Assembly: GCF_009996735.1 (NCBI RefSeq) | Contig: NZ_JAACYI010000001.1 | Location: forward strand, 380,522 to 444,521 | Direction of reading: 5' to 3' | DNA: 64,000 nt | Origin: Cellulomonas sp. APG4 | Lineage (GTDB): Bacteria; Actinomycetota; Actinomycetes; Actinomycetales; Cellulomonadaceae | In this document: one piece after another, positions 1-24,578 of the stretch | Numbering within the stretch: the stretch's first letter is position 1 | Layout of the letters: every line of letters begins with the position of its first letter | Position numbers and translations under genes: made by a program | Notes under the pieces: generated by a model | Seen by the model: the letters and a program-made list of their open reading frames with translations, nothing else | What the model was told of the DNA's origin: nothing | The model's database searches: none

Positions 1-1318
<1,318 letters not shown>

Positions 1319-6613: not shown

Positions 6614-10120
<3,507 letters not shown>

Positions 10121-10268
10121 GAGGGGTCCTTCCCTGCGGATCGAGTGCACGCGCGCGGGTCGAGGCCTTACCCTCCATACCAGCCCATGGCGGCCGATCG
10201 GGCACCGGGCAGAGCTCGGGACCGAGGGGCGGGTTGAGGGTTGCAGGCACAAGCCAGCGCAAAGCGCT

Positions 10269-10297
10269 AGCGTAGCCGGTCGATCCAGGCGGGTCAA
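10269..10297 (-). promoter_or_regulatory. Predicted promoter of rpoB-rpoC
   Basis: TTGACC (10297-10292) and TACGCT (10274-10269) on the minus strand with a 17-bp spacer. The predicted leader to the rpoB start is about 140 nt. Because a hairpin lies just upstream, rpoBC can be transcribed separately from rplJL. Confidence 0.75.
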
Positions 10298-10355
10298 CCC
10301 GGGTCATGGGACGACTGTGTCCCGGTGTCGTGACGTGCCGAGCCACCACGCCCGG

Positions 10356-10400
10356 GCACGTCGAAGGCCCGCACCCCCTGGGCACGGGCCTTCGACGTGC
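10356..10400 (-). terminator. Hairpin between rplL and rpoB
   Basis: Perfect 16-bp inverted repeat (10356-10371 and 10385-10400) with a 13-nt loop, 38 nt after the rplL stop. Two smaller perfect hairpins (10402-10419 and 10420-10434) lie between it and rplL. It probably ends or attenuates rplJL transcription; RNase processing is an alternative role. Confidence 0.75.
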
Positions 10401-10438
10401 TGACCGGCCGGGGCCGGTCGCTCGCTAGGAGCGAGAGG

Positions 10439-10831
10439 TCACTTGAGGGTGACGGTCGCGCCGGCGCCCTCGAGGGCAGCCTTCGCCTTCTCGGCGGTCT
10501 CCTTGTTCGCGCCCTCGAGCACGGGCTTGGGAGCACCGTCGACGAGGTCCTTGGCCTCCTTGAGGCCGAGGCTCGTGAGGGCACGCACCTCCTTGATGAC
10601 CTGGATCTTCTTGTCGCCGGCCGACTCGAGGATGACGTCGAACTCGTCCTTCTCCTCCTCGGCCTCGGCGGCGGCGGCGCCACCGCCGGCGGCCGGGGCC
10701 GCGGCAGCGGCGACCGGAGCGGCAGCGGTGACCTCGAAGGTCTCCTCGAAGGCCTTCACGAACTCGGAGAGCTCGATGAGGGTGAGCTCCTTGAAAGCGT
10801 CGATCAGCTCGTCGGTGGTGAGCTTCGCCAT
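10439..10831 (-). CDS. rplL: 50S ribosomal protein L7/L12
   Basis: 130-residue L7/L12, the flexible stalk protein that recruits translational GTPases. It has the N-terminal dimerisation helices ([20 protein letters not shown]), an Ala/Gly-rich hinge around residues 45-62 and the conserved C-terminal domain ([18 protein letters not shown]). The ATG at 10831 has GGAA upstream and gives the family start MAKLTTDEL. It follows rplJ by 83 nt and is followed by hairpins before the rpoB promoter. Confidence 0.98.
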
Positions 10832-10914
10832 GGTGGCGTTCCTTCCTGGTTGCCCTGCCCGGCGCACGGCCGGGAGCAGGTGGGGTGGTGTGTCGAGGGA
10901 CGGCGACCCTGGGG

Positions 10915-11445
10915 TCAGGCCGCCTGGTCCTCGGTCGCCCGCTTCTCGCGCAGGGCATCGATGGTGCGCACGGCCTGGGCCGTGGGCGCCGTGAACATGT
11001 ACGCCGCCTGGTAGAGCGACGCCTTGAACGCGCCGGCCAGCTTGGCCAGCAGCACCTCGCGGGACTCGAGGTCCGCGAGCTTGGTGATCCCGGCCGCGTC
11101 GAGCGGACGTCCGTCGAGGACACCGCCCTTGATGACGAGCTGGGGGTTGGCCTTGGCGAAGTCACGCAGGCCCTTGGCCGCCTCGACCGGGTCACCGGTC
11201 ACGAAGGCGACGGCCGAGGGGCCCTTGAGGTGGTCGTCGAGTCCCTCGACGCCGGCCTGCCTGGCCGCGATCGCGGTCAGCGTGTTCTTCACCACGGCGT
11301 AGGTTGCGTTGCCGCTGAGCGCGCGCCGCAGCTCCTTGAGCTGAGCGACGGAGAGCCCGCGGTACTCGGTCAGCACGACGGCGTCCGAGCTGCGGAACTT
11401 CTCCGTGAGCTCGGCGACCGCGGCTGCCTTGTCCGGCCTCGCCAT
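10915..11445 (-). CDS. rplJ: 50S ribosomal protein L10
   Basis: 176-residue L10, which anchors the L7/L12 dimers to 23S rRNA. It starts [17 protein letters not shown] and contains the conserved [15 protein letters not shown] and [10 protein letters not shown] segments; the Ala-rich C-terminal helix binds L7/L12. A hairpin-bearing leader precedes it, consistent with known autoregulation by the L10-L12 complex. It is separated from rplA by an unrelated 7-kb cassette, although in many bacteria rplKA and rplJL are adjacent. Confidence 0.98.
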
Positions 11446-11675
11446 GGCATTCCTTCCGGTGGTGGTGCCGCAGCGCGTCGGCCGACCCCGGACATGAGAA
11501 GAGCCCCGCGCAGGCGCGGGGCTCGGGGTCTCGACGGATGGTCTCCGTCGTCATGTCGAGTCACTCACCTGCGCCGGCCCCCGCTCACGTGCGGGACTTC
11601 GGTCCACCCCCGCGCGCCTGCTGCTCGCGAGCGAGCCTGGCGACGTGCGGGAGCCGACGACCTGCGGTCTTGGGC
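11446..11675 (-). promoter_or_regulatory. Probable L10 (rplJL) mRNA leader
   Basis: Predicted untranslated leader of about 230 nt. It contains a perfect 10-bp hairpin (11501-11510 with 11515-11524) followed on the minus strand by TTCTCATGTC and CCGGGGTCG, a layout resembling actinobacterial L10 leaders bound by L10-(L12)4. The exact 5' boundary is inferred from the promoter call. Confidence 0.5.
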
Positions 11676-11681
11676 CCAGCC

Positions 11682-11711
11682 AGCGTACGCGACGCGGCGC
11701 CGGACGCACAA
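11682..11711 (-). promoter_or_regulatory. Predicted promoter of rplJ-rplL
   Basis: TTGTGC (11711-11706) and TACGCT (11687-11682) on the minus strand, 18-bp spacer. The -10 hexamer is the same as that of rpoB. The rest of the 11446-11785 gap holds the L10 leader and, on the plus strand, only a ribosome-binding site for the next gene. Confidence 0.5.
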
Positions 11712-11785
11712 ACCGCCGTCGTGCACGTCACAACCCGGGGTGTCGCGCCCTCCTTCCCGGTGAGGACCTGCAGGGAGGAGCACGC

Positions 11786-12619
11786 ATGAGCACCGAGGCT
11801 GCCGTCCCCGCCCACGTCGACGGCGGCGGAGGGGTGACCGACTGCGCACGGTGGGCCCGCACGCACGTGCCCCACGGCGTGGGGCTCCCCGTCGCGAGGT
11901 TCGGCGAGGGGCACCCCGACGCCGGGTGGCGCGTGCGGGTGGCCCTCCTGCACGGCCCCGTCGACACGGAGCACCCCGACCTCGCCGGGGCCCGCACGAC
12001 GACGTGGCCGGGCGTGCGGGGCCTCCACCCCGGCACGCCCGACCCGTTGAGCACCGCCTACGCCGCGCTGCTCGTCGGCCAGGGTCGGGCGCAGGTCCGT
12101 GGCCTCGTCCCCGCCGCGCACCTGCTCGTGGCACCCGTGCTCGCCGCCGGCAGGCAGCACGCCGACGAGCTCGTGGCCCGCGCGGTGCGCTGGGCCGTCG
12201 CCGAGGGAGCTCACGTGGTGGCGCTGCCGATCGCCCGACGCCGCCTCGGGCGACGCCTGTCGGTCACCCTGCGCCGGGCGACCGCGGCAGGTGTGACCGT
12301 GCTCGCCCCCGCGGGTGACCGTGGGCCGCACGACGTCGCCTTCCCCGCCTCCGTCACGGGCGTCGTGGCGGTGGCCGCGCACGACGGCGAGCACCTGCTC
12401 CCGGGCGCGAGCGAGCTCGCCGACGTCGCCGCACCGGGTCAGGACGTTCCAGGTGCCGGCCCCGCGGGCACGACCCCGCTCAGCGGGTCCGCCCCCGCGA
12501 CGGTGCTCGCGGCCGGCGCGGCCGCCGCGGCACGCTCGGCCCTCGCCCTCGAGCTGTTCGGGTCCCTGCACGGCGATCCGCCGCTCCCGCAGGGGTGGAC
12601 GACCCACGGGGCCGGCTGA
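11786..12619 (+). CDS. Subtilase-fold pseudoprotease (S8-like, catalytic residues lost)
   Basis: 277-residue protein with the outline of a peptidase S8 domain but no usable triad. The Asp strand reads RVALLHGPVDTEHPDL (Asp replaced by His56), the region of the catalytic His reads PLSTAYAALLVG with no His, the oxyanion Asn motif is AGD (Asp178), and the Ser motif reads LSGSAPATVLAAG. No signal peptide or membrane segment is visible, so it is probably cytosolic. ATG at 11786 is preceded by GGGAGGAG. It converges on the CHAT gene (21-bp gap) and probably belongs to the same cassette as a non-catalytic partner, decoy or substrate-binding subunit. The fold call rests on motif spacing only. Confidence 0.7.
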   Translation: MSTEAAVPAHVDGGGGVTDCARWARTHVPHGVGLPVARFGEGHPDAGWRVRVALLHGPVDTEHPDLAGARTTTWPGVRGLHPGTPDPLSTAYAALLVGQGRAQVRGLVPAAHLLVAPVLAAGRQHADELVARAVRWAVAEGAHVVALPIARRRLGRRLSVTLRRATAAGVTVLAPAGDRGPHDVAFPASVTGVVAVAAHDGEHLLPGASELADVAAPGQDVPGAGPAGTTPLSGSAPATVLAAGAAAAARSALALELFGSLHGDPPLPQGWTTHGAG

Positions 12620-12640
12620 GCCGCGCGGGGTCGCGAGGTC

Positions 12641-15274
12641 TCAGTCGAGCCCGTCGACGAAGCAGGAGACGGGCACCGGCGGCACCACCTGGGCGGTTGC
12701 GTGGGCGAGCGCGCTCGCGGGGGCGAGACCATCGGCGAGGCCCGCATGCAGGGCCGGCATGAGGGCGGCCGCGGTGTCGTCCCGCAACGGCGCCAGGGCC
12801 GCGACCACGGCGCGCGCGCCCAGCCGCAGGAGCACGCTCGCGAGCCCGAGCACCTCACCCCCGGGCCGTTCGGAGGACCTCCCCACCTCGCACGCCGACA
12901 GGACGACGACCGAGCGGGGCAGCCGGAGACCCTCGAGCTCGTGGGCGAACAACGGGCCGTCCGCGAGACGGAGGGACGAGAACAGGGGGTTGTCGACCTC
13001 GTGCCGGCCGTGTGCGGCCAGGTGCACCACCGATGCCGTCGCGAGCGCCGCGCGCGCCGCCCCGCTCGTCGCGGCGTCACCCGTGCGGATCTCGACGCGG
13101 TGGGGCGGCCGCCAGCACTCCGCCACCGCGCGGGCCTCGGCCGCGGACGCAGCGAGGCCAGGGCCGGTCAGCACACGCACGTCGTCACGCCGCTCCACGG
13201 GCGGTCGGACGCGGTCCGGGTGGCCCTCGCGCGTCGCGAGCCGCGACGCGACGCTCGTGGCTCGGCCCGCACGCGACGGGAGGGCGCCCCAGGGGACCGT
13301 GAGCAGGAGGCCGCCGGCCACCACGTGGAGCGGCCCGCGCACGTCACCGAGGACCCGTCGCAGCACGATGTCGTCGAGCGCCGCGAGACCCCGACGCAAC
13401 GAGCGCTCCGCGACGTCCGCGAGCGCCGCGGGCAGCGATCGCGCGAGCACGTCGAGGTCCGCCCGGACGCGGCGGAGCACGGGACGCAGCTCGTCGAGGT
13501 CGGCCACCCGCGCGAGGCGGCTCCCCGCAGCGTCGAGGACGACGGCGTGCACCGCGCCCTGATGCACGACGAGGTCGAGGACGGTCACCTCGGTGGCGGC
13601 GTCGCGGAGCGTCCGGCGCACCTCCGCGGCCCGGGGTGGGCGCGGGGGCGCGACCCCCTCGCCCACCTGCCACGCGCGCTCCCTGATCCGGCGCTGGAGC
13701 CCGCTCATGAGCCTGCGCACCTCGGCGAGCTCCTCGGCGGCCGGGCCACGTGCCTCGGGTGGCAGCGCACGACGGCGCTCCGCGGCCTGCCGCAGCTCGC
13801 TGAGCAGCTCGGCGAGACGCTCGTCACGTGGCGGCTGAACCCTCGCCGCCCCGGCGAACGTGGCCCGCCCGCGCTCCACGGCGTCGAGCACGGCGTCGGC
13901 ACGACCGCGCGCGAGGGCCACCCCGACCTCGAGCTCGACCAGCCGGCTGCCGTGCACCGCAGCCGCGGCAACCGCCTCGACCGAGCCGAGCCGACGGCGG
14001 TGCTCCGCGAGCACCTCCTGCCCGCCCCGCACCTCGCTCCGCAGCCGGTCGGTACGGCCCTCGGCGAGCGCGAGACGCGCCCGGACCAGGCGTGTCTGCA
14101 CCGTGAGGGCGAGCGGCTGGTCGCCCGTGAGACGGCCCGCGGCGGCGAGGAGGACACGCGCCTCCTGCGTCCTGCCGGCCGCCGCGAAGGCCTCGGCGGC
14201 GGTGACGCGGGCCGCTCGTGCGAGGCCCGCGTCGAGGCTCTCGTCGGCGAGCTCGCGGGCGCGCTCCGCCAGACGCACGAGCGCCGACGTACCGCGGGGG
14301 CGGGGGCGTCCCCCTGCCTGCGCGGTCGTCGCGCCAGGCGTCCCGACCTCGTCGCGCAGCACCGCCAGCTCCGCCTGGCACACCGCGAGCTCGGCGCGCT
14401 GGGCCCAGGGCCGGTTCCCCCGCCGCAGGAGCCGCCGGTGCGCAGCACGAGCCCAGCGACGGGCCTCGTGCGGACGCCGGGCCAGCAGCGCGCAGTCGGC
14501 CCGCGCGAGCTCGGCCTGGGCGAGGTCGAACGCGAGACGCTGCGCGGCCAGCAGCGACGCGGCCTCCCCCAGGATCTGGTCGGCCTCCGTCACCAGTCCC
14601 GCCTCGACCAGCACCTGGGCGCGGTCGAGCAGCGCGATCGCCGGCGAGACGTCGTGGTCGAGGTCAGCGGCGTCGGCCATCGCAGCGAGCGCCGCGGGGA
14701 GGTCTCCCGCGAGGAACTCGAGGTAGCCGAGGTTGTGGCGCGCCTTGAACAGCCGCGTGCGGTCGCCGAGGCGCTCGGCGCGCTCGGCGACCGCAGTGAG
14801 GTCGGCGCGCGCCTGCGCGAGCCGTCCCTCGCCGAGCAGGAGGGAGCCGCGGTTGAGCAGGACGCGGCACGCGTCGAGCGGCTCGGCGTGCTCGATCCCG
14901 GCCACCGCGTTGTCCAGCGCCTCGAGTGCGCCGGGGATGTCACCGCCGCGCAGGCGGACGAGGCCGCGCTGCCCGGCGATGGCGACCTCGAGCGCTGGGG
15001 CCGTCGCGACCCGGGCCCACCCGAGGGCCTCGTCGAGCAGCTCCTCGGCGCGCCCGGCGTCGGCCCGGAGCTCGAACTCGCTCACGACGAGGCCCAGCAG
15101 GCTCCGGCTCCGGACGTAGGCGACGTCCCGTGCCGGGGCCGCGGCCCCGGGTGCGGGCCCGAGGCGCCGTAGCGCCGACCGGAACGCCGCCGAGGCGCGC
15201 GCGGGGCGCCCGGCGGAGTTGTGCTCGAGGCCGCGGTCGAGCGCGGCACGTGCCGCGTCGAGCTGCTGAGCCAT
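12641..15274 (-). CDS. TPR-CHAT caspase-like protease
   Basis: 877 residues. Roughly residues 1-560 are helical and Ala/Arg/Leu-rich with TPR-like repeats (for example ALEALDNAVAGIEHAEPLDA, RLAQARADLTAVAERAERLG). The C-terminal third is a CHAT domain, the caspase-related C14/CD fold, with the His-Cys dyad intact: HLAAHG (His755) and VVLSACEVG (Cys795), followed by the typical GGEVLGLASVLLRLGARAVVAAL. No signal peptide or membrane segment. ATG at 15274 has AAGGGG upstream. It is last in an operon with sigma factor, small protein and subtilisin, 41 nt after the subtilisin. CHAT proteases usually cut a specific partner when their TPR or sensor part is triggered; trigger and substrate here are unknown. 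Confidence 0.9.
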   Translation of the reverse strand: MAQQLDAARAALDRGLEHNSAGRPARASAAFRSALRRLGPAPGAAAPARDVAYVRSRSLLGLVVSEFELRADAGRAEELLDEALGWARVATAPALEVAIAGQRGLVRLRGGDIPGALEALDNAVAGIEHAEPLDACRVLLNRGSLLLGEGRLAQARADLTAVAERAERLGDRTRLFKARHNLGYLEFLAGDLPAALAAMADAADLDHDVSPAIALLDRAQVLVEAGLVTEADQILGEAASLLAAQRLAFDLAQAELARADCALLARRPHEARRWARAAHRRLLRRGNRPWAQRAELAVCQAELAVLRDEVGTPGATTAQAGGRPRPRGTSALVRLAERARELADESLDAGLARAARVTAAEAFAAAGRTQEARVLLAAAGRLTGDQPLALTVQTRLVRARLALAEGRTDRLRSEVRGGQEVLAEHRRRLGSVEAVAAAAVHGSRLVELEVGVALARGRADAVLDAVERGRATFAGAARVQPPRDERLAELLSELRQAAERRRALPPEARGPAAEELAEVRRLMSGLQRRIRERAWQVGEGVAPPRPPRAAEVRRTLRDAATEVTVLDLVVHQGAVHAVVLDAAGSRLARVADLDELRPVLRRVRADLDVLARSLPAALADVAERSLRRGLAALDDIVLRRVLGDVRGPLHVVAGGLLLTVPWGALPSRAGRATSVASRLATREGHPDRVRPPVERRDDVRVLTGPGLAASAAEARAVAECWRPPHRVEIRTGDAATSGAARAALATASVVHLAAHGRHEVDNPLFSSLRLADGPLFAHELEGLRLPRSVVVLSACEVGRSSERPGGEVLGLASVLLRLGARAVVAALAPLRDDTAAALMPALHAGLADGLAPASALAHATAQVVPPVPVSCFVDGLD

Positions 15275-15315
15275 GGTCACCCCTTCGCCGGGTGCGGCGG
15301 AGGGGTGACCCCGGG

Positions 15316-17064
15316 TCAGGACGTCGGCTCGAGCCCCGTCGTCTCGGTGATGGCCGTCCAGGTCTCCTCGCACCGCGAGTGCACCGTAGCGCCCGCGACG
15401 CCGCGGGGTCCGATGCGCTCACGCTCGCGCAGCAGGACAGCCGCGATCTCCCCGGCAAGCACCGGCGCCGCGAACGACGTGCCGCTCCAGACACCGAACC
15501 CGCCCGAGAAGTCGTCGGGGTCGACGGTGCCTCGGCGCTCGCCCGGGTCGGTCCCCACCAGCGACGTGGACGGCGTGCGCGACCCGGCGAGCGTCACGGG
15601 GAACGTGCTGACGAGCGAGGCACCCGCACGTCGACAGGTGACCCACGGTCCGTCGTTGCTGAACAGCGCCGTGGTGCCGTCGGGGTTGAGCGCGCCGACG
15701 GTCAGCACGGGCGGGTCGTCCTTGCTGAGGGTCGACGGCGGGATCGGCGTGGGCGGTGTCACGGCCCGGTCGAGCCGTGGCGCGAAGGCTGCCGGGTACA
15801 GCGGACGCGGGTCGCCGTCGTTGCCCGCCGAGACCACGACGGCCACGCCCGTCCGCCGCAGGGTGTCGAGGAGGTGACGGAACGGCGTGTCGAACGCCGC
15901 GTCCTGCGGGCGCTCGTGCCGGTAGCCAATCGAGAGGCTGAGCACGTCGACGGGGTAGCAGTCGGCGTGCCCCGCGAGGCCCCGCAGGTGGAACACCAGG
16001 AGCCTGCGCAGCGAGCGGAGCAGGTCCCACTCCGCGATGAAGCCCTCGCCGCCGTACAGCCGGCAGGCGAGGACCACGGCGTCCGGGCAGAGCTGGTGCA
16101 CGAGGCCCGAGATGAACGTGCCGTGGCCGGCTACCGGGTCGAGACCGCCGGTGAGCGGCGCGATCGCCATCCCGCCGTCCTCGCAGTCCTGGAGCGGGTT
16201 CGTCGGGCGCGGGTACGTCCCGATCGGTTCCCCGAGCACCTGGGGGTCGCGGACCACGACGTCGTCGGTGAGCCACGGGTGGCGACCGGTTCCGGTGTCG
16301 AGCACGGCGACGACGGGGCGTTCGATCCCGTCGGCGGTGCGGTCGACCGTGCGTCCGTCCTTGTGCCGGCGGCGCGGCGCGGGCCCGACCCAGGTGACCG
16401 GCGACCGACCGCCCGAACCGGCGCGTCCGTACTCGGCAAGTCCCGGCGCCGGGTGCGGGTCGGTGTAGGGGTGCGGGTCCGTGTAGGGGTGCGGGTCCGT
16501 GTACGGGTGGGGGTCCGTGTACGGGTGCGGGTCCGTGTAGGGGTGGGGGTCGGTGTACGGCGCCGCGACCAGCACATGGTCGAGGCTCAGGACGATGCCC
16601 TCCCCCGCCACGGCGGTCAGGCCCTCGCCGACCTCCTCGAGGAGGTCCCACGCGTCGGGAGGACCGGCGGGCCGCCCCGGCGCTGGCTCCACCCGCAGGC
16701 CGAAGCCGAAGGCCGGCTCGGCGGTCGCGAGTGCCTCGGCGTCGAGCCCGGCCCTGCGGAGCAGACGGGCGTCCGCGAGGTCCCCGGCCTCGAGCCGCAC
16801 GGCCCAGTTGTGCTCCGCGGCCGCTCGCTCGAGCTCGGCGATCACCGAGCCCACCGCGGCCTTGTCGTCGGCCGGCACACCCTGGACCAGGATGCGGTCC
16901 GCGATGTACGCCGTCTGCTGTGGCGCGGGGAGGCCCCCTCGGCGGACCGCCGTCGCGGGGTCGAGCGTCCGCACTCGCCACCGCAGCGGTGCGAGCGGCG
17001 GCTGGTCACCTCCGTCGCCCTGCTCACCCTTGCGGTCGCCGCCATGGCTCGCGTCCTGGCTCAT
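15316..17064 (-). CDS. Intracellular subtilisin-family (S8) serine protease with hexapeptide repeat
   Basis: 582 residues with a complete triad: Asp256 (VVAVLDTGTGRHP), His314 (VAGHGTFISG), Ser530 (WSGTSFAAPVLAG), and oxyanion Asn415 (VSAGNDG). There is no signal peptide, so it should act in the cytoplasm. Residues 1-160 form an N-terminal extension of unknown fold, followed by six copies of PYTDPH (169-204), a proline-rich spacer directly before the protease domain. Strong GGAAGGAG before the ATG at 17064. It lies between the small protein gene (39-nt gap) and the TPR-CHAT gene. The pairing of two proteases of different clans suggests a proteolytic cascade or mutual activation, which is inference. 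Confidence 0.92.
   Translation of the reverse strand: MSQDASHGGDRKGEQGDGGDQPPLAPLRWRVRTLDPATAVRRGGLPAPQQTAYIADRILVQGVPADDKAAVGSVIAELERAAAEHNWAVRLEAGDLADARLLRRAGLDAEALATAEPAFGFGLRVEPAPGRPAGPPDAWDLLEEVGEGLTAVAGEGIVLSLDHVLVAAPYTDPHPYTDPHPYTDPHPYTDPHPYTDPHPYTDPHPAPGLAEYGRAGSGGRSPVTWVGPAPRRRHKDGRTVDRTADGIERPVVAVLDTGTGRHPWLTDDVVVRDPQVLGEPIGTYPRPTNPLQDCEDGGMAIAPLTGGLDPVAGHGTFISGLVHQLCPDAVVLACRLYGGEGFIAEWDLLRSLRRLLVFHLRGLAGHADCYPVDVLSLSIGYRHERPQDAAFDTPFRHLLDTLRRTGVAVVVSAGNDGDPRPLYPAAFAPRLDRAVTPPTPIPPSTLSKDDPPVLTVGALNPDGTTALFSNDGPWVTCRRAGASLVSTFPVTLAGSRTPSTSLVGTDPGERRGTVDPDDFSGGFGVWSGTSFAAPVLAGEIAAVLLRERERIGPRGVAGATVHSRCEETWTAITETTGLEPTS
16451..16558 (-). repeat. Six tandem 18-bp repeats inside the S8 gene
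   Basis: Six contiguous 18-bp units (16451, 16469, 16487, 16505, 16523, 16541) differing only at a few third-position bases, each encoding the hexapeptide PYTDPH. The unit is a multiple of three, so slippage would change the spacer length without a frameshift. There are no spacers, so it is not a CRISPR array. Confidence 0.97.
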
Positions 17065-17103
17065 CGCTCTCCTTCCGTGGCCGTGCGTCGGTGGTGACGT
17101 GGG

Positions 17104-17652
17104 TCAGAGCTCGATGACAGGTGTGCAGACCGTCGGGCCGGTGCCGTCGGAACGACGCAGCGCGAGGCAGGCCGCGCCCCGGGGTACGTCGAGAAGGACG
17201 AAGGCACCGTCCTCGTCCGAGTCCGTCGCGACGTGACCGCCCGGTCGGTACAGCTCGACCCGGTAGCTGTCGGCCGGCGCGACCCAGCCGTCGATGCACA
17301 GGCCTCCGGACGCGCTCTGGGACAGGTTCACCATCACCGTCACGGGCTCGCTCGCGAACGTGATCGTGGAGACCCGCACCATCTCGCGCTCCGCGTCGTG
17401 GCTCCGTGCGACGAGCTCGGGCGTCAGCACCTGCTCGAGCTCGAGCACGTCGGCGCGCAGGCGCTCGAGGGTGAGCGCGAACAGGGCGCGGTCCGCCAGG
17501 CCCTCCGGGACCGGGTCGACGGTCGTGAGCACGCGTGCGAGGTCGGCGAGCACCTCCTCGTCGCGCGCGTCGAGCAGCTCACCCGCCGCTCCGTCGGTGT
17601 CGCTCGGCTCCGCGGCGTCGTGGCCCGTGCGGTCGTCGTCGGCGTCGGTCAT
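17104..17652 (-). CDS. Small cytosolic protein between sigma factor and protease; candidate sigma regulator
   Basis: 182 residues; I do not recognise a named family. Residues 1-30 are acidic and probably disordered, 31-82 look helical (DEEVLADLARVLTTVDPVPE, LERLRADVLELEQVL), and 90-182 look like a beta-sandwich with alternating hydrophobic strands (PVTVMVNLSQS, SYRVELYRPGG, GAFVLLDVPRGAACLALR), similar in style to carboxypeptidase-regulatory or transthyretin-like domains. No signal peptide or membrane segment. Its ATG overlaps the sigma factor TGA (ATGA), the arrangement usual for a sigma factor and its regulator, so an anti-sigma or adaptor role is a reasonable guess. It could also be a substrate of either protease downstream. 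Confidence 0.75.
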   Translation of the reverse strand: MTDADDDRTGHDAAEPSDTDGAAGELLDARDEEVLADLARVLTTVDPVPEGLADRALFALTLERLRADVLELEQVLTPELVARSHDAEREMVRVSTITFASEPVTVMVNLSQSASGGLCIDGWVAPADSYRVELYRPGGHVATDSDEDGAFVLLDVPRGAACLALRRSDGTGPTVCTPVIEL

Positions 17653-18278
17653 GACCAGCCCCACCTCTCGTCGGCGTCGAGCGCGCTGCGCAGCTTCGCC
17701 AGGCACCGGCCGCGGGTGACCCCGACCGATGTCACCCCCATGCCCGTGACCTCGGCGATCGCCTTGTAGTCGGGGCGGTCCGCGAAGGCGACGAAGCGAA
17801 GGATCTGGCGGCACCGCTCGGGCAGACCGCTGAACGCGTCCCACAGGAGCCGGTCACGCTCGGCGACCACGACCGCCTCGTCGGGCTGCGGGTCCGCGTC
17901 GGGCACCTGCCGGGCCGGTTCGTCGTCGTCGCCCAGGGCGGCCGTACGGCGCGCCTCGTCGCGGCCCTTCCCGCTCGCCTGCCAGGCCGCCCGGCGCGCG
18001 CTCACCACGAGCCACTTGAGCACGGCGTGCGGGTCGCGGATGGTCTCGGCGCTGCGCACGAAGGCGAGCCAGACGCCCTGGACCACGTCGTCCGCGGTGT
18101 CGCGGTCGACGCCCTGCGACCGCACGACGTTCCAGAGCAGCGGGGTGAGCTCGCGCACCACGTCGGCAAGGGGATCCGTGAGCCCCATGCGGTACGCCTC
18201 GAGGGCGAGGGCAGCACGGTCACCCAGGGTCATCCGGGTGACGTCGCCGTCGGTCGAACCCTCAGGTGCGCGGTTCAC
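17649..18278 (-). CDS. ECF-type RNA polymerase sigma factor
   Basis: 209 residues. Region 2 spans about 37-103 (LADVVRELTPLLWNVVRSQG, DTADDVVQGVWLAFV) and region 4 about 140-200 (FSGLPERCRQILRFVAFAD, YKAIAEVTGMGVTSVGVTRG), with the acidic linker expected for group 4 sigma factors. I chose GTG at 18278 because GGGAGG lies ten bases upstream; ATG at 18233 would also keep both regions but has no Shine-Dalgarno sequence. First gene of the operon with the small protein, S8 and TPR-CHAT genes. Its likely role is to switch on genes, perhaps including its own operon, when released by proteolysis; this is inferred from context. Confidence 0.9.
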   Translation of the reverse strand: MNRAPEGSTDGDVTRMTLGDRAALALEAYRMGLTDPLADVVRELTPLLWNVVRSQGVDRDTADDVVQGVWLAFVRSAETIRDPHAVLKWLVVSARRAAWQASGKGRDEARRTAALGDDDEPARQVPDADPQPDEAVVVAERDRLLWDAFSGLPERCRQILRFVAFADRPDYKAIAEVTGMGVTSVGVTRGRCLAKLRSALDADERWGWS

Positions 18279-18313
18279 CGACGCGAGGCCTCCCGTGTGC
18301 GAGCGTGCGCCCG

Positions 18314-18343
18314 AGCCTAGGGCTCCGCGCGGGTGGGCCACAA
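18314..18343 (-). promoter_or_regulatory. Predicted promoter of the sigma/S8/CHAT operon
   Basis: TTGTGG (18343-18338) and TAGGCT (18319-18314) on the minus strand with an 18-bp spacer. It resembles the housekeeping consensus, so basal expression may not need the encoded sigma factor. Confidence 0.45.
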
Positions 18344-18483
18344 CAGTCACGCGCCTGCCTCCCGACCTCGGCCCCCGGTCGGGGCCTCTCACCGTTCAGG
18401 AGGCCCCTGGACGCGCTCCGTGACATGCCGACGACGACGAGCTCGGCGCGGTGGTCAGGAGACCTGCCCGGGTGCGGACGCGA

Positions 18484-18517
18484 CGAGGGCCCGGCAGCAC
18501 GTGCTGCCGGGCCCTCG
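18484..18517 (-). terminator. Terminator after rplA
   Basis: Perfect 34-bp palindrome (two 17-bp arms), 21 nt after the rplA stop. It insulates the rplK-rplA transcript from the sigma-factor operon that follows on the same strand. Confidence 0.88.
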
Positions 18518-18538
18518 AGGTGCGTGCCGGAGACGACG

Positions 18539-19261
18539 TCAGGCGACGTCGGCCTCCTCCTCGGTGAGGTTGCGCGTCTTGTTCTGGTCGAGCGCGATGC
18601 TCGGGCCCATCGTGGTGGTCACGACGGCCTTGGTGATGTAGCGCCCCTTGGACGACGAGGGCTTGAGACGCAGCACCTCCTCGAGCGCGGCCGCGTAGTT
18701 CTCGACGAGCTGCACGTCGGAGAACGAGACCTTGCCGATGATGAAGTGCAGGTTCGCGTGCTTGTCGACACGGAACTCGATCTTGCCGCCCTTGATGTCC
18801 GAGACAGCCTTGGCGACGTCCATGGTCACCGTGCCCGTCTTCGGGTTCGGCATCAGACCGCGCGGGCCCAGGACCTTGCCGAGGCGGCCGACCTTGCCCA
18901 TGAGGTCCGGGGTCGCCACCGCGGAGTCGAAGTCCGTGTACCCGGCCGCGACCTTCTCGATCAGTTCGTCGCCGCCGACCTCGTCGGCACCCGCCGCACG
19001 CGCCTGCTCGGCACGCTCACCGGTCGCGAAGACGATCACGCGGGCCGTCTTGCCGGTGCCGTGCGGGAGGTTGACCGTGCCACGGACCATCTGGTCCGCC
19101 TTGCGCGGGTCGACGCCGAGGCGGAAGGCCACCTCGACCGTCGCGTCGTACTTCGTGGACGAGGTCGCCTGCGCGAGGCGGATCGCCTCGAGCGGGGCGT
19201 AGACCTTGGTCCGGTCGATCTTCTCGGCGGCCTCGCGGTACGCCTTGCTGCGCTGTGCCAT
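18539..19261 (-). CDS. rplA: 50S ribosomal protein L1
   Basis: 240-residue L1, which forms the mobile L1 stalk at the ribosomal E site. It starts [21 protein letters not shown] and contains the signature region [23 protein letters not shown] at 19261 has AAGGAG upstream. It follows rplK after 211 bp that carry a 72-bp duplicated segment, and ends at a 34-bp palindromic terminator. The rplJL genes that often follow rplA are instead about 7 kb away, beyond the sigma/S8/CHAT cassette. Confidence 0.98.
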
Positions 19262-19324
19262 CTGCTTCTCTCCTTGCAGTCGTGGTGCGGGCCAGCGCCT
19301 GGCCCTTCCACTGGGGTGGGGTGG

Positions 19325-19396
19325 TGCGGGGCTCACCGCCCGGCAGGACTCGCTGCGCTCGTCCTACCGGCGGCTCACTCCTCAGCCCTGGACGGT
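19325..19396. repeat. 72-bp direct repeat, copy 1 (rplK-rplA spacer)
   Basis: Exact 72-bp copy of 19416-19487, offset by 91 bp with a 19-bp spacer. It includes the last four codons and stop of rplK (TVQG-stop), so it arose by tandem duplication of the rplK 3' end. Each copy contains an imperfect stem around GGCAGGAC and GTCCTACC. Confidence 0.97.
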
Positions 19397-19415
19397 ACAT
19401 CTCCTGTCCAGGGCC

Positions 19416-19487
19416 TGCGGGGCTCACCGCCCGGCAGGACTCGCTGCGCTCGTCCTACCGGCGGCTCACTCCTCAGCCCTGGACGGT
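19416..19487. repeat. 72-bp direct repeat, copy 2 (overlaps the rplK end)
   Basis: Second copy of the 72-bp repeat. This one supplies the functional rplK C-terminus and stop codon at 19473-19475. Confidence 0.97.
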
Positions 19488-19904
19488 GATACCCATCGAG
19501 CGGGCCGTGCCGGCGACGATCTTCATCGCCGCGTCGATGTCGTTGGCGTTCAGGTCCTCGAGCTTCGTCTGCGCGATCTCGCGCACCTGGTCCTGCGTCA
19601 GGGACGCGACCTTGGTGGTGTGCGGCGTGGGCGAGCCCTTGGCGACGCCCGCGGCCTTCTTGATGAGCTCGGCGGCCGGCGGCGTCTTCGTGATGAACGT
19701 GAACGAGCGGTCCTCGTAGACCGTGATCTCGACCGGGATGACGTTGCCGCGCTGCGACTCGGTCGCGGCGTTGTACGCCTTGCAGAACTCCATGATGTTG
19801 ACGCCGTGCTGACCGAGCGCGGGGCCGATCGGCGGCGCCGGGGTCGCGGCACCAGCGTTGATCTGGAGCTTGATGAGGCCGGCGACCTTCTTCTTGGGGG
19901 GCAT
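19473..19904 (-). CDS. rplK: 50S ribosomal protein L11
   Basis: 143-residue L11, part of the GTPase-associated centre and needed for RelA-type stringent signalling. It starts [20 protein letters not shown] and contains [20 protein letters not shown]. The proline-containing N-terminal site for thiopeptides looks normal. It follows nusG by 94 nt. Its last codons and stop are duplicated downstream in a 72-bp direct repeat, without effect on the reading frame. Confidence 0.98.
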
Positions 19905-19998
19905 GATGCCTTCCGTTCGTGTCGTGGGCCGACGCCGTGGGCGATGACCCGGTTGCAGTGCTGCCACGGCCGCCGCGGCGGCCGTCCTCGCGGGTTCG

Positions 19999-20787
19999 TC
20001 AGATCTTGGCGACCTGGTTGAACGACAGCTCGACCGGGGTCTCCCGGCCGAAGATCGAGACGAGCACCTTGAGCTTCTGCGCCTCGGCGTTGATCTCGGA
20101 GATCGTCGCCGGCAGCGTGTCGAAGGGCCCGTCGGTCACGGTGACCGACTCGCCGACGGTGAAGTCGACGGCGATCTGCGGCGCGGCCGCCTTGGTCGTC
20201 GCCTTCTCCGCCGCCGGGGCGAGGGTCGGCGCGAGCATCGAGAAGACCTCGTCGAGCGTGAGGGGCACAGGCTGGTGGGTGTGGCCCACGAAGCCCGTGA
20301 CGCCCGGCGTGTGGCGGACCGCGCCCCACGACTCGTCCGTCAGGTCCATCCGCACCAGGACGTATCCCGGGACACGCACGCGCCGCACGACCTTGCGCTG
20401 CGCGTTCTTGATCTCGGTGACCTCCTCCATCGGCACCTCGACCTGGAAGATGTAGTCCTCCATGTTGAGGCTCTGCGTCCGGTTCTCGAGGTTGGCCTTC
20501 ACGCGGTTCTCGTAGCCCGCGTAGGAGTGGATGACGTACCAGTCGCCAGGCTGCCGGCGGAGCTCCGCCTTGAAGGCGTCGACCGGGTCGACGTCCTCGT
20601 CCTCGTCGTCGACGGGCTGCTCGGTCGCCGGGGCCGACGTCGCGTCGCCCTCGGGCGCGACGTCCTCCCCGGCGGGGTCCGCGCCTGCGGGCGCGACCTC
20701 GTCGGCACCGCCGCTCTGCGTGGCCTCGTCGGCGTCGATGACGTCCGTCGGCTCCTGCTCGGTCGGCTCCAGGGAGTCCTGCGACAC
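19999..20787 (-). CDS. nusG: Transcription termination/antitermination protein NusG
   Basis: 262 residues. An acidic N-terminal extension of about 75 residues (rich in Asp, Glu, Ala) precedes the NGN domain ([31 protein letters not shown]) and a C-terminal KOW domain ([19 protein letters not shown]). Such extensions are common in actinobacterial NusG. The start is a GTG at 20787. It lies between secE and rplK in the conserved secE-nusG-rplK-rplA order. Confidence 0.97.
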
Positions 20788-20851
20788 GGGGTGAACCTGC
20801 TTTCTGATGACTGTGCGGACTGCGGTGCGGGCGAGGGACGCGTGTCGGGGC

Positions 20852-21127
20852 TCAGCCCCCGAACACCCAGCCCACGAGCGTGCCGATGCCCAGGTCGAGC
20901 ACGGTGACGAAGGCCATGACCACCGCGACGAAGACGAGCACGACCGTGGTGTAGGTCATGAGCTCGGAGCGGGTGGGCCGCACGACCTTCTTGAGCTCCG
21001 CGACGACCTGGCGGACGAAGAGCGCGATGCGCGCGAAGACGCCGCGACGCGCATCGTCGTCCCGGCCCGGTCGCGCGCTGCCGGCGCCCTCGGCGCCGGA
21101 GGCCGCAGCCCGTGCGGATTCGCTCAC
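20852..21127 (-). CDS. secE: Preprotein translocase subunit SecE
   Basis: 91 residues with a charged N-terminus, the conserved amphipathic helix ending in [16 protein letters not shown] and one membrane segment ([20 protein letters not shown]). This is the single-span form of SecE that clamps SecY. Starts with GTG at 21127. Located immediately upstream of nusG and downstream of tRNA-Trp, the same arrangement as in mycobacteria. Confidence 0.96.
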
Positions 21128-21239
21128 AAGTTCGTCCCTACGTCTCGTCCGTGCCGGCCGCCCTCGCGGCCTCGGTCAGGCGTCCGCGCCCGGAGAGGCC
21201 GCGAGCCGCCCCCGGGTCCAGGACCCGGGTCGGTGCACG

Positions 21240-21312
21240 CAGGGCAGGCGAGACTCGAACTCGCAACCGCCGGTTTTGGAGACCGGTGCGCTACCAATTG
21301 CGCCACTGCCCT
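21240..21312 (-). tRNA. trpT: tRNA-Trp (anticodon CCA)
   Basis: Cloverleaf with acceptor AGGGCAG/CTGCCCT, T-arm TTCGAGT and anticodon loop CTCCAAA, anticodon CCA; 73 nt, 3' CCA not encoded. Lies directly upstream of secE and may share its transcript. The rest of the gap to the next gene (21313-21506) holds no gene I can support. Confidence 0.97.
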
Positions 21313-21494
21313 TCACCGGGGCCGACGTCCACTTCCGGTACCGCTCCACGCGAACCCGGTCAGGTGCGGGCGCGGGCACGGCACATCATGGCGGACGTCA
21401 ACCACCAGCGGTCGAGTGTACGTGGTCACGGGCGCCGGGTCGAACAGGGCGTCCGCGGGACGGTTCCGCCCCGACCCGGCGGCCCGCCCTCTGC

Positions 21495-21500
21495 CAGTAT
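21495..21500 (+). promoter_or_regulatory. Candidate leaderless -10 element of the aminotransferase gene
   Basis: CAGTAT ends 6 nt before the GTG start at 21507 and no Shine-Dalgarno sequence lies between, so the transcript probably begins at the start codon. No convincing -35 was found. Confidence 0.4.
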
Positions 21501-21506
21501 GAACGG

Positions 21507-22745
21507 GTGACCGAGACGCCCTCCTCCGCAGCCGCCCGTCCCGCGCGCCGCCGGGTCTCCGCCCGCGTGGGTTCCATCGCCGAGTCCGCGACGCTCGCCG
21601 TCGACGCGCGCGCCAAGGCCCTCAAGGCCGCCGGCCGCCCCGTCATCGGCTTCGGCGCGGGCGAGCCCGACTTCCCCACGCCGGGCTACGTGGTCGAGGC
21701 CGCCGTCGCCGCGTGCCGCGAGCCGGCCAACCACCGGTACACCCCCGCCGCGGGCCTGCCCGCGCTGCGCGAGGCGATCGCCGCCAAGACGCTGCGCGAC
21801 TCGGGGTACGAGGTCGCGCCGGGCCAGGTGCTCGTGACCAACGGTGGCAAGCAGGCCGTGTACCAGGCGTTCGCGACGATCGTGGACCCGGGCGACGAGG
21901 TCCTCCTGCCGGCTCCGTACTGGACCACCTACCCCGAGGCGATCCGGCTCGCGGGCGGCACGCCTGTCGAGGTGTTCGCCGGCGCCGAGCAGGGCTACCT
22001 CGTGACCGTCGACCAGCTCGAGGCCGCACGGACGGACCGCACCAAGGTGCTGCTCTTCTGCTCGCCGTCGAACCCCACGGGCGCGGTGTACTCGGCCGCG
22101 CAGACCGAGGAGATCGGACGTTGGGCGCTCGAGCACGGCATCTGGGTGATCACCGACGAGATCTACGAGCACCTGCTCTACGACGACGCCGAGTTCACGC
22201 CGGTCGTGCGTGCGGTGCCCGAGCTCGCGGACACGACGATCGTGCTCAACGGTGTGGCCAAGACCTACGCGATGACCGGGTGGCGCGTGGGCTGGATGAT
22301 CTCGCCGGCCGACGTCACCAAGGCGGCGACGAACCTGCAGTCCCACCTCACCTCGAACGTCGCGAACGTCTCCCAGCGCGCCGCGATCGCGGCCCTCACG
22401 GGCGACCTCTCGGCCGTCCACGAGATGCGTACCGCGTTCGACCGACGACGTCGGCGCATGGTCGAGATGCTGTCAGCGATCCCGGGGGTGCACGTCCCCA
22501 CACCCACCGGTGCGTTCTACGCCTACCCGAGCGTGGAGGGGCTCCTCGGCCGCTCGATCCGTGGGCGCACCCCGACGACGTCGGCCGAGCTCGCCGCGCT
22601 GATCCTCGACGAGGTCGAGGTCGCCGTCGTGCCGGGTGAGGCCTTCGGTCCCAGCGGGTTCCTGCGACTCTCCTACGCCCTGGGCGACGACGACCTCGTC
22701 GAGGGCGTGCGCCGCATCCAGGACCTGCTCGGCGAGGCCGAGTAG
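21507..22745 (+). CDS. aspC: Class I/II aminotransferase, probably aspartate aminotransferase
   Basis: 412 residues, PLP-dependent fold type I. The Schiff-base lysine is Lys252 in [15 protein letters not shown]; substrate and cofactor motifs [10 protein letters not shown] and [12 protein letters not shown] are present, and the final Arg motif [12 protein letters not shown] binds the alpha-carboxylate. Most like subgroup I-gamma aspartate aminotransferases, which may also accept prephenate. The GTG at 21507 gives the expected N-terminus; longer readings run through tRNA-Trp. A perfect 8-bp hairpin lies 9 nt after the stop, separating it from the ABC exporter. Confidence 0.9.
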
Positions 22746-22754
22746 CGCTCGGGG

Positions 22755-22772
22755 GTCCACCGTCCGGTGGAC
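22755..22772 (+). terminator. Short hairpin after aspC
   Basis: Perfect inverted repeat GTCCACCG/CGGTGGAC with a 2-nt loop, 9 nt after the aspC stop; probably a terminator, possibly an operator for the following operon. Confidence 0.5.
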
Positions 22773-22830
22773 GCCTGAACCCTCCGGGAGGTCCTCGCGC
22801 CCGGACGGCGATCCGCGGGAGGCTCTGGTC

Positions 22831-23715
22831 ATGAGCACACTCGCGGTCCGGGTGACGGGCCTGCACAAGCACTACGGTCCCAAGCGCGCCGTCGACGGCC
22901 TCGACCTCGAGGTCGAACAGGGCGAGATCTTCGCGGTCCTCGGCCCCAACGGGGCGGGGAAGACGACCACCGTGGAGATCCTCGAGGGGTTCCGGCGGCG
23001 CGACGCCGGCGAGGTGAGCGTGCTCGGCGAGGACCCGCAGCGGGCCGGTCGCGCATGGCGGAGCCGGATCGGCGTGGTCCTCCAGGACGTCGACGACCAC
23101 GCGGAGCTCAGCGTGCACGAGCTCGTGCACCACTTCGCGCGGTACTACCCGGGGGCCCGCGACGCGGACGAGGTCATCGCCGCCGTCGGCCTGACCGAGA
23201 AGGCCCGCACCCGCACCCGCCAGCTCTCGGGCGGGCAGCGACGCCGGCTCGACGTCGCGCTCGGCATCGTGGGGCGCCCCGAGCTCCTCTTCCTCGACGA
23301 GCCGACCACGGGGTTCGACCCCGAGGCGAGACGCTCGTTCTGGGACCTCGTGGCCGGGCTGCGCGACGAGGGCACCACGATCCTCCTGACCACGCACTAC
23401 CTCGACGAGGCCGAGCACCTGGCCGACCGCTGCGCGGTGGTGCGCGACGGTCGCGTCGTGGCCATGGACGCGCCGGCGCGGCTCGGGGGCCGCGCCTCGC
23501 GGCACGCGCTCGTGCGCTGGCAGACCCCGGAAGGCCCCCGCGAGGAGGTCACCGAGGCGCCGACCGCTCTCGTCGCCCGCCTCGCCGCCGCACTGGCGCC
23601 CGACGGCGGCGAGGTCCCCGGGCTCGAGGTCCGCCGACCCACGCTCGAGGACGTGTACCTCTCCCTGATCGGCGAGCAGGGCGCCGACATCGACCTCGAG
23701 GAGGTCTCCCGATGA
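22831..23715 (+). CDS. ABC transporter ATP-binding protein (ABC-2 type exporter)
   Basis: 294 residues. Walker A GPNGAGKTT, Q-loop VLQDVDDH, signature LSGGQRRR, Walker B LLFLDEPTT and switch His in LLTTHYLDEAEH are all intact; the C-terminal tail (VRRPTLEDVYLSLIGEQG) is typical of DrrA/NatA-like drug or antibiotic exporters. ATG at 22831 is preceded by GGGAGG. First gene of a four-gene operon with permease, sensor kinase and response regulator, all overlapping, which suggests the two-component system senses the exported compound or envelope stress and regulates the exporter. Confidence 0.93.
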   Translation: MSTLAVRVTGLHKHYGPKRAVDGLDLEVEQGEIFAVLGPNGAGKTTTVEILEGFRRRDAGEVSVLGEDPQRAGRAWRSRIGVVLQDVDDHAELSVHELVHHFARYYPGARDADEVIAAVGLTEKARTRTRQLSGGQRRRLDVALGIVGRPELLFLDEPTTGFDPEARRSFWDLVAGLRDEGTTILLTTHYLDEAEHLADRCAVVRDGRVVAMDAPARLGGRASRHALVRWQTPEGPREEVTEAPTALVARLAAALAPDGGEVPGLEVRRPTLEDVYLSLIGEQGADIDLEEVSR

Positions 23716-24578
23716 GCACCGCCACCCGCCCGGCCGCCGCGACCACCCGGCGACCCGCCACAGCCACCCTGCCGTCCGCGCTGCGGCTGGGGCTCGCGCG
23801 CACCTCCCTCGAGATCCGCGAGTTCTTCCGCGAGCGCGACGCCGTCGTGTTCGTGTTCGCCTACCCGATCATCATGCTCGCGATCTTCGCGACGGTGTTC
23901 GGCCAGGACGGGGCTCGGGTCGGCCCGGGTGAGGGCGTGCCGTTCGCGCAGTACTTCCTGCCCGGCATGGTCGCCACCGGCGTGCTCCTGTCGAGCTTCC
24001 AGAACCTCGCGATCTCGATCTCCGTCGAGCGAGACGAGGGGCGCCTCAAGCGCCTGCGGGCGACCCCCATGCCGGCCTCGGCCTACTTCCTCGGCAAGGT
24101 CGGCTCGATGCTCGTGACCTGCGTGGTCCAGACCGCGCTCCTCCTCGCGGTGGGGGCGGTGCTGTTCGACGTGACCCTGCCCGACGACCCGGGACGCTGG
24201 TGGACGTTCGCGTGGGTCTTCGCGCTCGGCACGGGTTCGGGCGCCATCTGCGGCGTCGCGTTCTCCTCGATCCCCCGCAGCGGCCGCAGCGCCTCGGCCG
24301 TGGTGATCCCGGTCGCGATCGTCCTGCAGTTCATCTCGGGGGTGTTCTTCACGTTCGGCGACCTCCCGGCATGGATGCAGCAGGTGGCGTCGCTGTTCCC
24401 GCTCAAGTGGATGGCGCAGGGCATGCGCTCGGTGTTCCTGCCCGACGCCGCCGCGGCCCTCGAGCCGTCCGGGTCGTGGCAGCACGGGGCGACGGCCGCG
24501 GTGCTCGTGGCGTACCTCGTCGTCGGACTTGTCGTGGGTGTGCGCACGTTCCGCTGGCGGCGACGTGACGACGGCTGA
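23712..24578 (+). CDS. ABC-2 type transporter permease
   Basis: 288 residues with about six membrane segments, including VFVFAYPIIMLAIFATVFG, LPGMVATGVLLSSFQNLAIS, VTCVVQTALLLAVGAVLF and VVIPVAIVLQFISGVFFTF, plus the C-terminal segment VLVAYLVVGLVVGVRTF. It has the conserved cytosolic stretch SVERDEGRLKRLRATPMP of ABC-2 permeases. ATGA overlap with the ATPase gene and overlap with the kinase gene indicate translational coupling. Substrate unknown. Confidence 0.92.
   Translation: MSTATRPAAATTRRPATATLPSALRLGLARTSLEIREFFRERDAVVFVFAYPIIMLAIFATVFGQDGARVGPGEGVPFAQYFLPGMVATGVLLSSFQNLAISISVERDEGRLKRLRATPMPASAYFLGKVGSMLVTCVVQTALLLAVGAVLFDVTLPDDPGRWWTFAWVFALGTGSGAICGVAFSSIPRSGRSASAVVIPVAIVLQFISGVFFTFGDLPAWMQQVASLFPLKWMAQGMRSVFLPDAAAALEPSGSWQHGATAAVLVAYLVVGLVVGVRTFRWRRRDDG

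Follow-up and report, generated by a model that had tools for sequence, protein, structure and literature searches.

A four-gene cassette in Cellulomonas sp. APG4 (Actinomycetota; Cellulomonadaceae) may well encode a protease-gated switch of an extracytoplasmic function (ECF) sigma factor that is free of CRISPR (clustered regularly interspaced short palindromic repeats), in which a CHAT protease would cut a small anti-sigma factor after residue Arg83 and free the sigma factor; we put the probability of this reading at about 0.56. The cassette lies in a stretch of 64,000 nucleotides from contig NZ_JAACYI010000001.1 (assembly GCF_009996735.1, positions 380,522–444,521 of the forward strand), which is referred to here as the window and provides the numbering used below. 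Its four minus-strand genes, all intact, encode the sigma factor (SIG), the candidate anti-sigma factor (SMALL), an S8 protease (S8) and a TPR-CHAT protease (CHAT). An initial annotation of the window had read these genes as one operon with an ATGA overlap, in which a sensor-protease, a cleaved regulator and a released sigma factor might act as they do in type III-E CRISPR loci, with S8 added as an amplifier or as the substrate. The operon is confirmed in its coordinates and domains, and the proposed logic survives in part, as SMALL fits the role of a cleaved anti-sigma factor but S8 is not a core component; taken as a whole, the interpretation is only partly supported. It also overlooked a published context for these genes, ECF54, for which a different mechanism has been suggested. 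The features are as follows.

17649–18278, minus strand: SIG, ECF-type sigma factor of 209 amino acids with a GTG start; the longest frame extends to 18392
17104–17652, minus strand: SMALL, candidate anti-sigma factor of 182 amino acids; ATGA overlap with SIG at 17649–17652
17425–17568, minus strand: helical N-domain of SMALL, residues 29–76, two helices in the AlphaFold2 model
17380–17427, minus strand: disordered linker of SMALL, residues 76–91, with an AlphaFold2 predicted local distance difference test score (pLDDT) below 50
17404–17406, minus strand: codon of linker Arg83, the proposed P1 residue of the cut site, where the window reads V-A-R-S
17107–17370, minus strand: beta domain of SMALL, residues 95–182, AlphaFold2 pLDDT about 90–97 from residue 101
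15316–17064, minus strand: S8 protease of 582 amino acids, Pfam Peptidase_S8 at 2.7e-15, triad intact; accessory gene
12641–15274, minus strand: TPR-CHAT protease of 877 amino acids, Pfam CHAT at 3.6e-30; the frame from the first start codon reaches 15373
13010–13012, minus strand: codon of the CHAT catalytic His755, invariant in two alignments
12890–12892, minus strand: codon of the CHAT catalytic Cys795, invariant in two alignments
18314–18343, minus strand: promoter-like TTGTGG-N18-TAGGCT upstream of SIG, a pattern shared with relatives

The mechanism we propose would start with the co-production of SIG and SMALL from their overlapping genes, the helical N-domain of SMALL keeping SIG inactive. 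The TPR arm of CHAT would sense a signal and open the separase-like CHAT protease, which would then cleave SMALL in the disordered linker after Arg83. Parted from the beta domain, the N-domain might be destabilised or trimmed further, and the freed SIG would move to RNA polymerase. Where present, S8 would have an accessory role, trimming the cut anti-sigma factor or modulating CHAT.

SIG matches TIGR02937 (sigma70-ECF, 8.3e-18) and Pfam Sigma70_r2 (2.9e-07), and its GTG start is preceded by GGGAGG. Across the 56 loci of our named scan (from Actinotalea, Cellulosimicrobium, Oerskovia, Promicromonospora, Isoptericola, Myceligenerans, Luteimicrobium and others), the order SIG–SMALL–S8–CHAT was found on one strand in 55, with the contig of the remaining locus (L094) ending after S8, and S8 came after SMALL in all 56. 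SMALL was present in 101 of 150 genomes drawn from the family, of which 96 had CHAT within 8 kb of it and four of the other five had SMALL on contigs that end a few kilobases away; 99 genomes of the draw had both SMALL and CHAT, two SMALL only, five CHAT only and 44 neither. In the wider phylum, a search with a single SMALL sequence matched 15 of 296 genomes and a profile search 57 of 396 at E ≤ 1e-3. At E ≤ 1e-6 the profile found SMALL in 50 phylum genomes, 46 of them with CHAT, compared with CHAT in 35 of the 346 others (46 with both, four with SMALL only, 35 with CHAT only and 311 with neither), and with the family profile one of the four counted as lacking CHAT (G467) shows CHAT in truncated form next to SMALL (L221). 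The cassette is found in about one in eight of the sampled phylum genomes, and the four genes also occur together in a different arrangement in seven large genomes of the same class (L174–L180). When 131 distinct SMALL proteins from fetched loci were considered as a wide set, SIG lay no more than 300 bp from SMALL in 124 and CHAT was present in the fetched stretch in 117. The recurring gene order and the co-distribution of SMALL and CHAT exceed chance, and the co-occurrence across genomes that the initial annotation had set as a check on its proposal is borne out.

SMALL has no convincing Pfam match and no NCBIfam family match. The AlphaFold2 model we built from 54 sequences has helices at residues 29–45 and 52–76, pLDDT below 50 at 76–91 and, starting near residue 95, a confidently predicted beta domain (mean pLDDT 79.4; predicted template modelling score, pTM, 0.49), and the pTM is as expected if the N-domain and the beta domain are not fixed to each other. 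In this model Arg83 (position 87 in the numbering of the family alignment) sits within the disordered segment between the two folded parts. The Arg is retained by 70/70 proteins in the family alignment, 23/23 in a wider set and 14/14 in a second SMALL architecture, as well as by 130 of the 131 distinct SMALL proteins, and most other columns of the linker are more variable. The sole exception (L192) comes from a genome that is 96% complete and has no CHAT match. Among the 130 proteins, G, A or S occupies P3 in 113, V occupies P2 in 96 and G, S, A or T follows at P1' in 129, which corresponds to a consensus of [GAS]-V-R/[GSAT] with the cut proposed after R.

The second architecture (family f19) has the order SIG, SMALL, CHAT, with S8 after CHAT in L194–L198 and ahead of SIG in L218, L222, L223 and L225, and its SMALL proteins have a longer N-domain than the window type. 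Profile comparison links the two architectures (97.9%, 6.4e-13); their alignment starts late in the longer N-domain and is at its clearest in the linker and beta domain. At E ≤ 1, the NCBIfam model NF052375 ‘anti-sigma factor’ was weakly matched by 11 of the 14 second-architecture proteins (best 6.8e-05) and CarboxypepD_reg was found in the beta domain of 13 (best 1.1e-06); zf-HC2 was weakly matched by three of the 14 and RskA_N by one. In comparisons with solved structures, Foldseek returned no match for SMALL at 1e-3 and hmmsearch no anti-sigma match, the only hmmsearch match being that of the second-architecture beta domain to NOMO2 (1.4e-06). As neither an anti-sigma model nor a solved structure is matched by the subfamily to which the window's SMALL belongs, we infer that SMALL is a candidate anti-sigma factor from its position, its coupling with SIG and the related architecture.

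The neighbourhood itself is already known, as a 2022 review (PMC8999054) names ‘carboxypeptidase, subtilase and CHAT’ as the context of ECF54. The likeness of our cassette to ECF54 is judged by this gene context (carboxypeptidase-like, subtilase and CHAT genes near an ECF sigma factor). SMALL is probably the ‘carboxypeptidase’ of the literature, and its CarboxypepD_reg-like beta domain is probably the reason for that name. SMALL as an actual carboxypeptidase was rejected, as no peptidase domain was matched and the beta domain produced just regulatory-like matches. The review proposes that proteases degrade the sigma factor and so keep it inactive without an anti-sigma factor, and uses AntA/ClpXP to illustrate how a sigma factor is degraded; SMALL would then be a peptidase or an adaptor. 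However, SMALL has no peptidase domain and overlaps SIG, the second architecture resembles anti-sigma factors, and the degradation model leaves the constrained Arg in the disordered linker unexplained; we consider it unlikely, and the least so of the alternatives. Our proposal differs from the published account in making SMALL both the anti-sigma factor and the substrate that is cut.

The S8 triad named in the initial annotation is well conserved in the family (Asp256 in 66, His314 in 66 and Ser530 in 67 of 67 sequences), and in distant loci the His and Ser motifs are present in 25/25 matches, nine of which do not cover the Asp motif. Inspection by eye revealed no evident signal peptide. We searched with the window's S8 at a threshold of 1e-8, a search that does not exclude unrelated subtilases, in 14 genomes chosen for having CHAT closely after SMALL (L064, L066, L068, L069 and L207–L216), and found no match in any of these SIG–SMALL–CHAT genomes, while S8 was found in both S8-bearing positive controls. 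S8 is therefore dispensable and accessory, and we reject both S8 as a core component and the amplifier or substrate role first suggested for it. The linker Arg is present in all 14 of these genomes, and if it is the cut site, then CHAT is the constant protease able to cut there. This bears on a two-step protease cascade in which CHAT would activate S8 and S8 would do the cutting, a scheme that fits the invariable position of S8 after SMALL in the named loci, the persistence of CHAT–S8 pairs away from SIG–SMALL (L200, L201 and L204) and the prodomain of one second-architecture S8 (2.1e-07). Such a cascade could hold where S8 is present, and other subtilases might serve in the 14 genomes, but with S8 unmatched and the Arg kept in every one of them we regard it as improbable. 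The three CHAT–S8 pairs are themselves divergent and have no SIG–SMALL in the fetched stretch; the genome of L200 has a SIG–SMALL pair on another contig, that of L204 has SMALL genes on other contigs, and about 27 kb separates the L201 pair from a SMALL gene in its genome.

Comparably improbable is the suggestion that the linker Arg serves as a point of contact with SIG, CHAT or the beta domain, with release achieved by binding or by a conformational change. Invariance alone is no proof of cleavage, and as SMALL was modelled without partners the segment predicted to be disordered may order on binding. On the other side, the P3–P1' residues are small and constrained like a protease site, two intact proteases are encoded alongside, and the Arg is lost in one case lacking CHAT, though it is retained in two others (G418 and G535).

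CHAT is the protease to which we assign the cut, and the dyad predicted for it, His755 and Cys795, is invariant in 43/43 aligned sequences; in the divergent loci both residues are kept in every CHAT match that covers the motif, which two partial matches from L081 do not. The AlphaFold2 model of the 877-residue protein (pLDDT 86.6, pTM 0.84) has human separase (9hma, 1.6e-13) as its best Foldseek match, and also matches the anti-sigma factor DdvA (1.8e-12) and Csx29 in the Cas7-11 complex (4.2e-12), with TM-scores by query length of 0.46, 0.29 and 0.36, respectively. In sequence searches the CHAT domain matched DdvA (1.9e-12), the TPR-CHAT of Craspase (1.1e-08) and a chain named Csx29 (7.2e-05), so that the kinship with the Craspase protease that was first suggested is upheld in both sequence and fold. 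It should be noted that the NCBIfam Csx29 model scores only 19.4 bits on CHAT, far under its cut-off of 300 bits. Separase cleaves after Arg, as proposed here for CHAT; it differs in being a eukaryotic cohesin protease, and the SMALL motif does not have the ExxR form. As a separate observation, two tandem CHAT genes follow S8 in L057 and L061 (Promicromonospora- and Antribacter-type loci).

The cassette has a fixed chromosomal place in the family. In the window it lies between the L11–L1 genes (19967–18539) and the L10–L7/L12–rpoB genes (11445–6614), and family cassettes are co-oriented with these ribosomal and RNA polymerase genes. In 45 of 75 family loci L1 is no more than 3 kb upstream and both L10 and rpoB follow downstream, and a further 17 have L10 and rpoB downstream with L1 not within 3 kb (3.8–5.0 kb upstream in three of them); the remainder have L1 and L10 (four), L1 only (four), L10 only (two) or none of them (three, one being on a 4-kb contig). 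This L1/L10/rpoB placement was seen at none of the 56 loci from outside the family. The fixed place speaks for vertical inheritance within the family, and the idea of a mobile defence island is not supported there. A perfect 72-nt direct repeat is also present at the L11/L1 gene junction of the window (19325–19396 and 19416–19487, with the copies 91 bases apart).

Upstream of SIG, the pattern TTGnnn-16..19-TAGRnT occurs in 20 of 70 regions compared with 0.14 expected, with a spacing of 18 in all 20, and a GGAAC-type ECF site in 0/70. The TTGnnn-N18-TAGRnT element resembles a housekeeping promoter, as would suit a sentinel that is kept ready before it is needed. No regulon was found with a strict form of the promoter pattern, which occurs at two places in the genome compared with one in the control. 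The proposal that the cassette acts without CRISPR is supported as far as tested: Cas1 had no match in the source genome (the control matched in 9/14 genomes; other cas genes, including Cas7-11, were not searched), and no set of repeats was read as a CRISPR array within window positions 8000–24000. Type III-E CRISPR systems use a CHAT protease (PMC10028731) and there is a weak similarity to BovA (9.7e-04), but the notion that CHAT is an effector cutting other cell proteins in defence or cell death, with the sigma pair setting only CHAT expression, is very improbable given a family cassette fixed between ribosomal and RNA polymerase genes, unlike a defence island, and an upstream element that is not ECF-like.

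A number of observations weigh against the proposed cleavage of SMALL by CHAT and the release of SIG. ECF54 is listed without an anti-sigma factor in the 2022 review. Anti-sigma models are matched by 0/54 members of the window's SMALL subfamily, where the commonest weak match is to a NikL transporter model (19/54, best 0.011), and one NF052375 score from the second architecture, at 15.9 bits, falls far short of the cut-off of 100 set for that model. The coupling analysis of SIG and SMALL (109 pairs; effective number of sequences 61) is too shallow to decide and gave a weak signal, with seven of the top ten pairs in the N-domain compared with 3.3 expected and the top pair in the beta domain. 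For seven of the 131 SMALL genes no sigma gene lies 300 bp or less away, and all seven retain the Arg; three of these are additional copies belonging to L075 and L187, and for the other four (L078, L082, L086 and L191) no sigma factor, CHAT or S8 was found in the fetched stretch. G418 and G535 retain the Arg without a CHAT match (in assemblies of 590 and 240 contigs, respectively), and the structural matches of CHAT have low TM-scores (0.29–0.46 by query length). Csx29 is not known to cut Csx30 after an Arg.

Among the closest known systems is Craspase of type III-E CRISPR, in which a TPR-CHAT protease (Csx29), a cleaved inhibitor (Csx30, cut at amino acids 427–429) and an ECF-like sigma factor (CASP-sigma) are combined (PMC10028731). 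Our CHAT is related to Csx29 and has a His/Cys dyad; the cassette differs from Craspase in having no Cas1 or array within the scope searched and in often having S8, and SMALL, at 182 amino acids and with no NCBIfam match, is set apart from Csx30 without a direct comparison. In a type III CRISPR system, CalpL cleaves the anti-sigma factor CalpT and is thought to free the ECF sigma factor CalpS (PMC11417357); this protease is a Lon-SAVED protein activated by cyclic tetra-adenylate. Csx29/Csx30 and CalpL/CalpT thus provide two CRISPR precedents for sigma release using other parts. Outside CRISPR, DdvA/DdvS of Myxococcus xanthus also ties a CHAT domain to ECF control, with DdvA named as an anti-sigma factor in PDB entries 8rot and 8rw5 and DdvS described as turning active once DdvA is inactivated (PMC4374960), the difference being that there the CHAT domain belongs to an anti-sigma factor that spans the membrane.

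More tentatively, and with somewhat less than even confidence, we suggest that the logic of Craspase also exists on the chromosome without CRISPR, as the ECF54-type cassette, with a separase-like, Arg-specific TPR-CHAT protease cleaving a soluble anti-sigma factor at a near-invariant linker Arg, and that the CRISPR version arose when a switch of this kind was co-opted for RNA sensing. If this were true, the cassette would be a CRISPR-free counterpart for Craspase, and many actinobacteria would have a chromosomal switch in which a separase-like protease releases a sigma factor, a device then no longer peculiar to CRISPR systems. The literature searched did not describe SMALL as an anti-sigma factor with a cleavable Arg, although Casas-Pastor 2021 and Huang 2015 may say more, and as far as this literature shows, that role, the dispensability of S8 and the fixed ribosomal/rpoB place are new here. 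With an inhibitor and a protease named and one cut residue predicted, the unexplained neighbourhood of a group listed as having no anti-sigma factor becomes testable in a single experiment.

Two further observations concern S8 sequences in the window. An 18-nt tandem repeat of 5.9 copies (16451–16557) lies inside the S8 gene and encodes about six copies of PYTDPH, which separate the N-terminal part from the catalytic domain. A degenerate S8-like protein is encoded at 11645–12619 on the plus strand, convergent with CHAT; its Ser motif is altered in nine of ten aligned sequences (judged by eye, and with several from duplicate loci), L096 retaining GSS, and the Asp is retained in some of the aligned sequences. 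This gene adjoins the cassette in 6/57 loci, namely the window and five Actinotalea loci.

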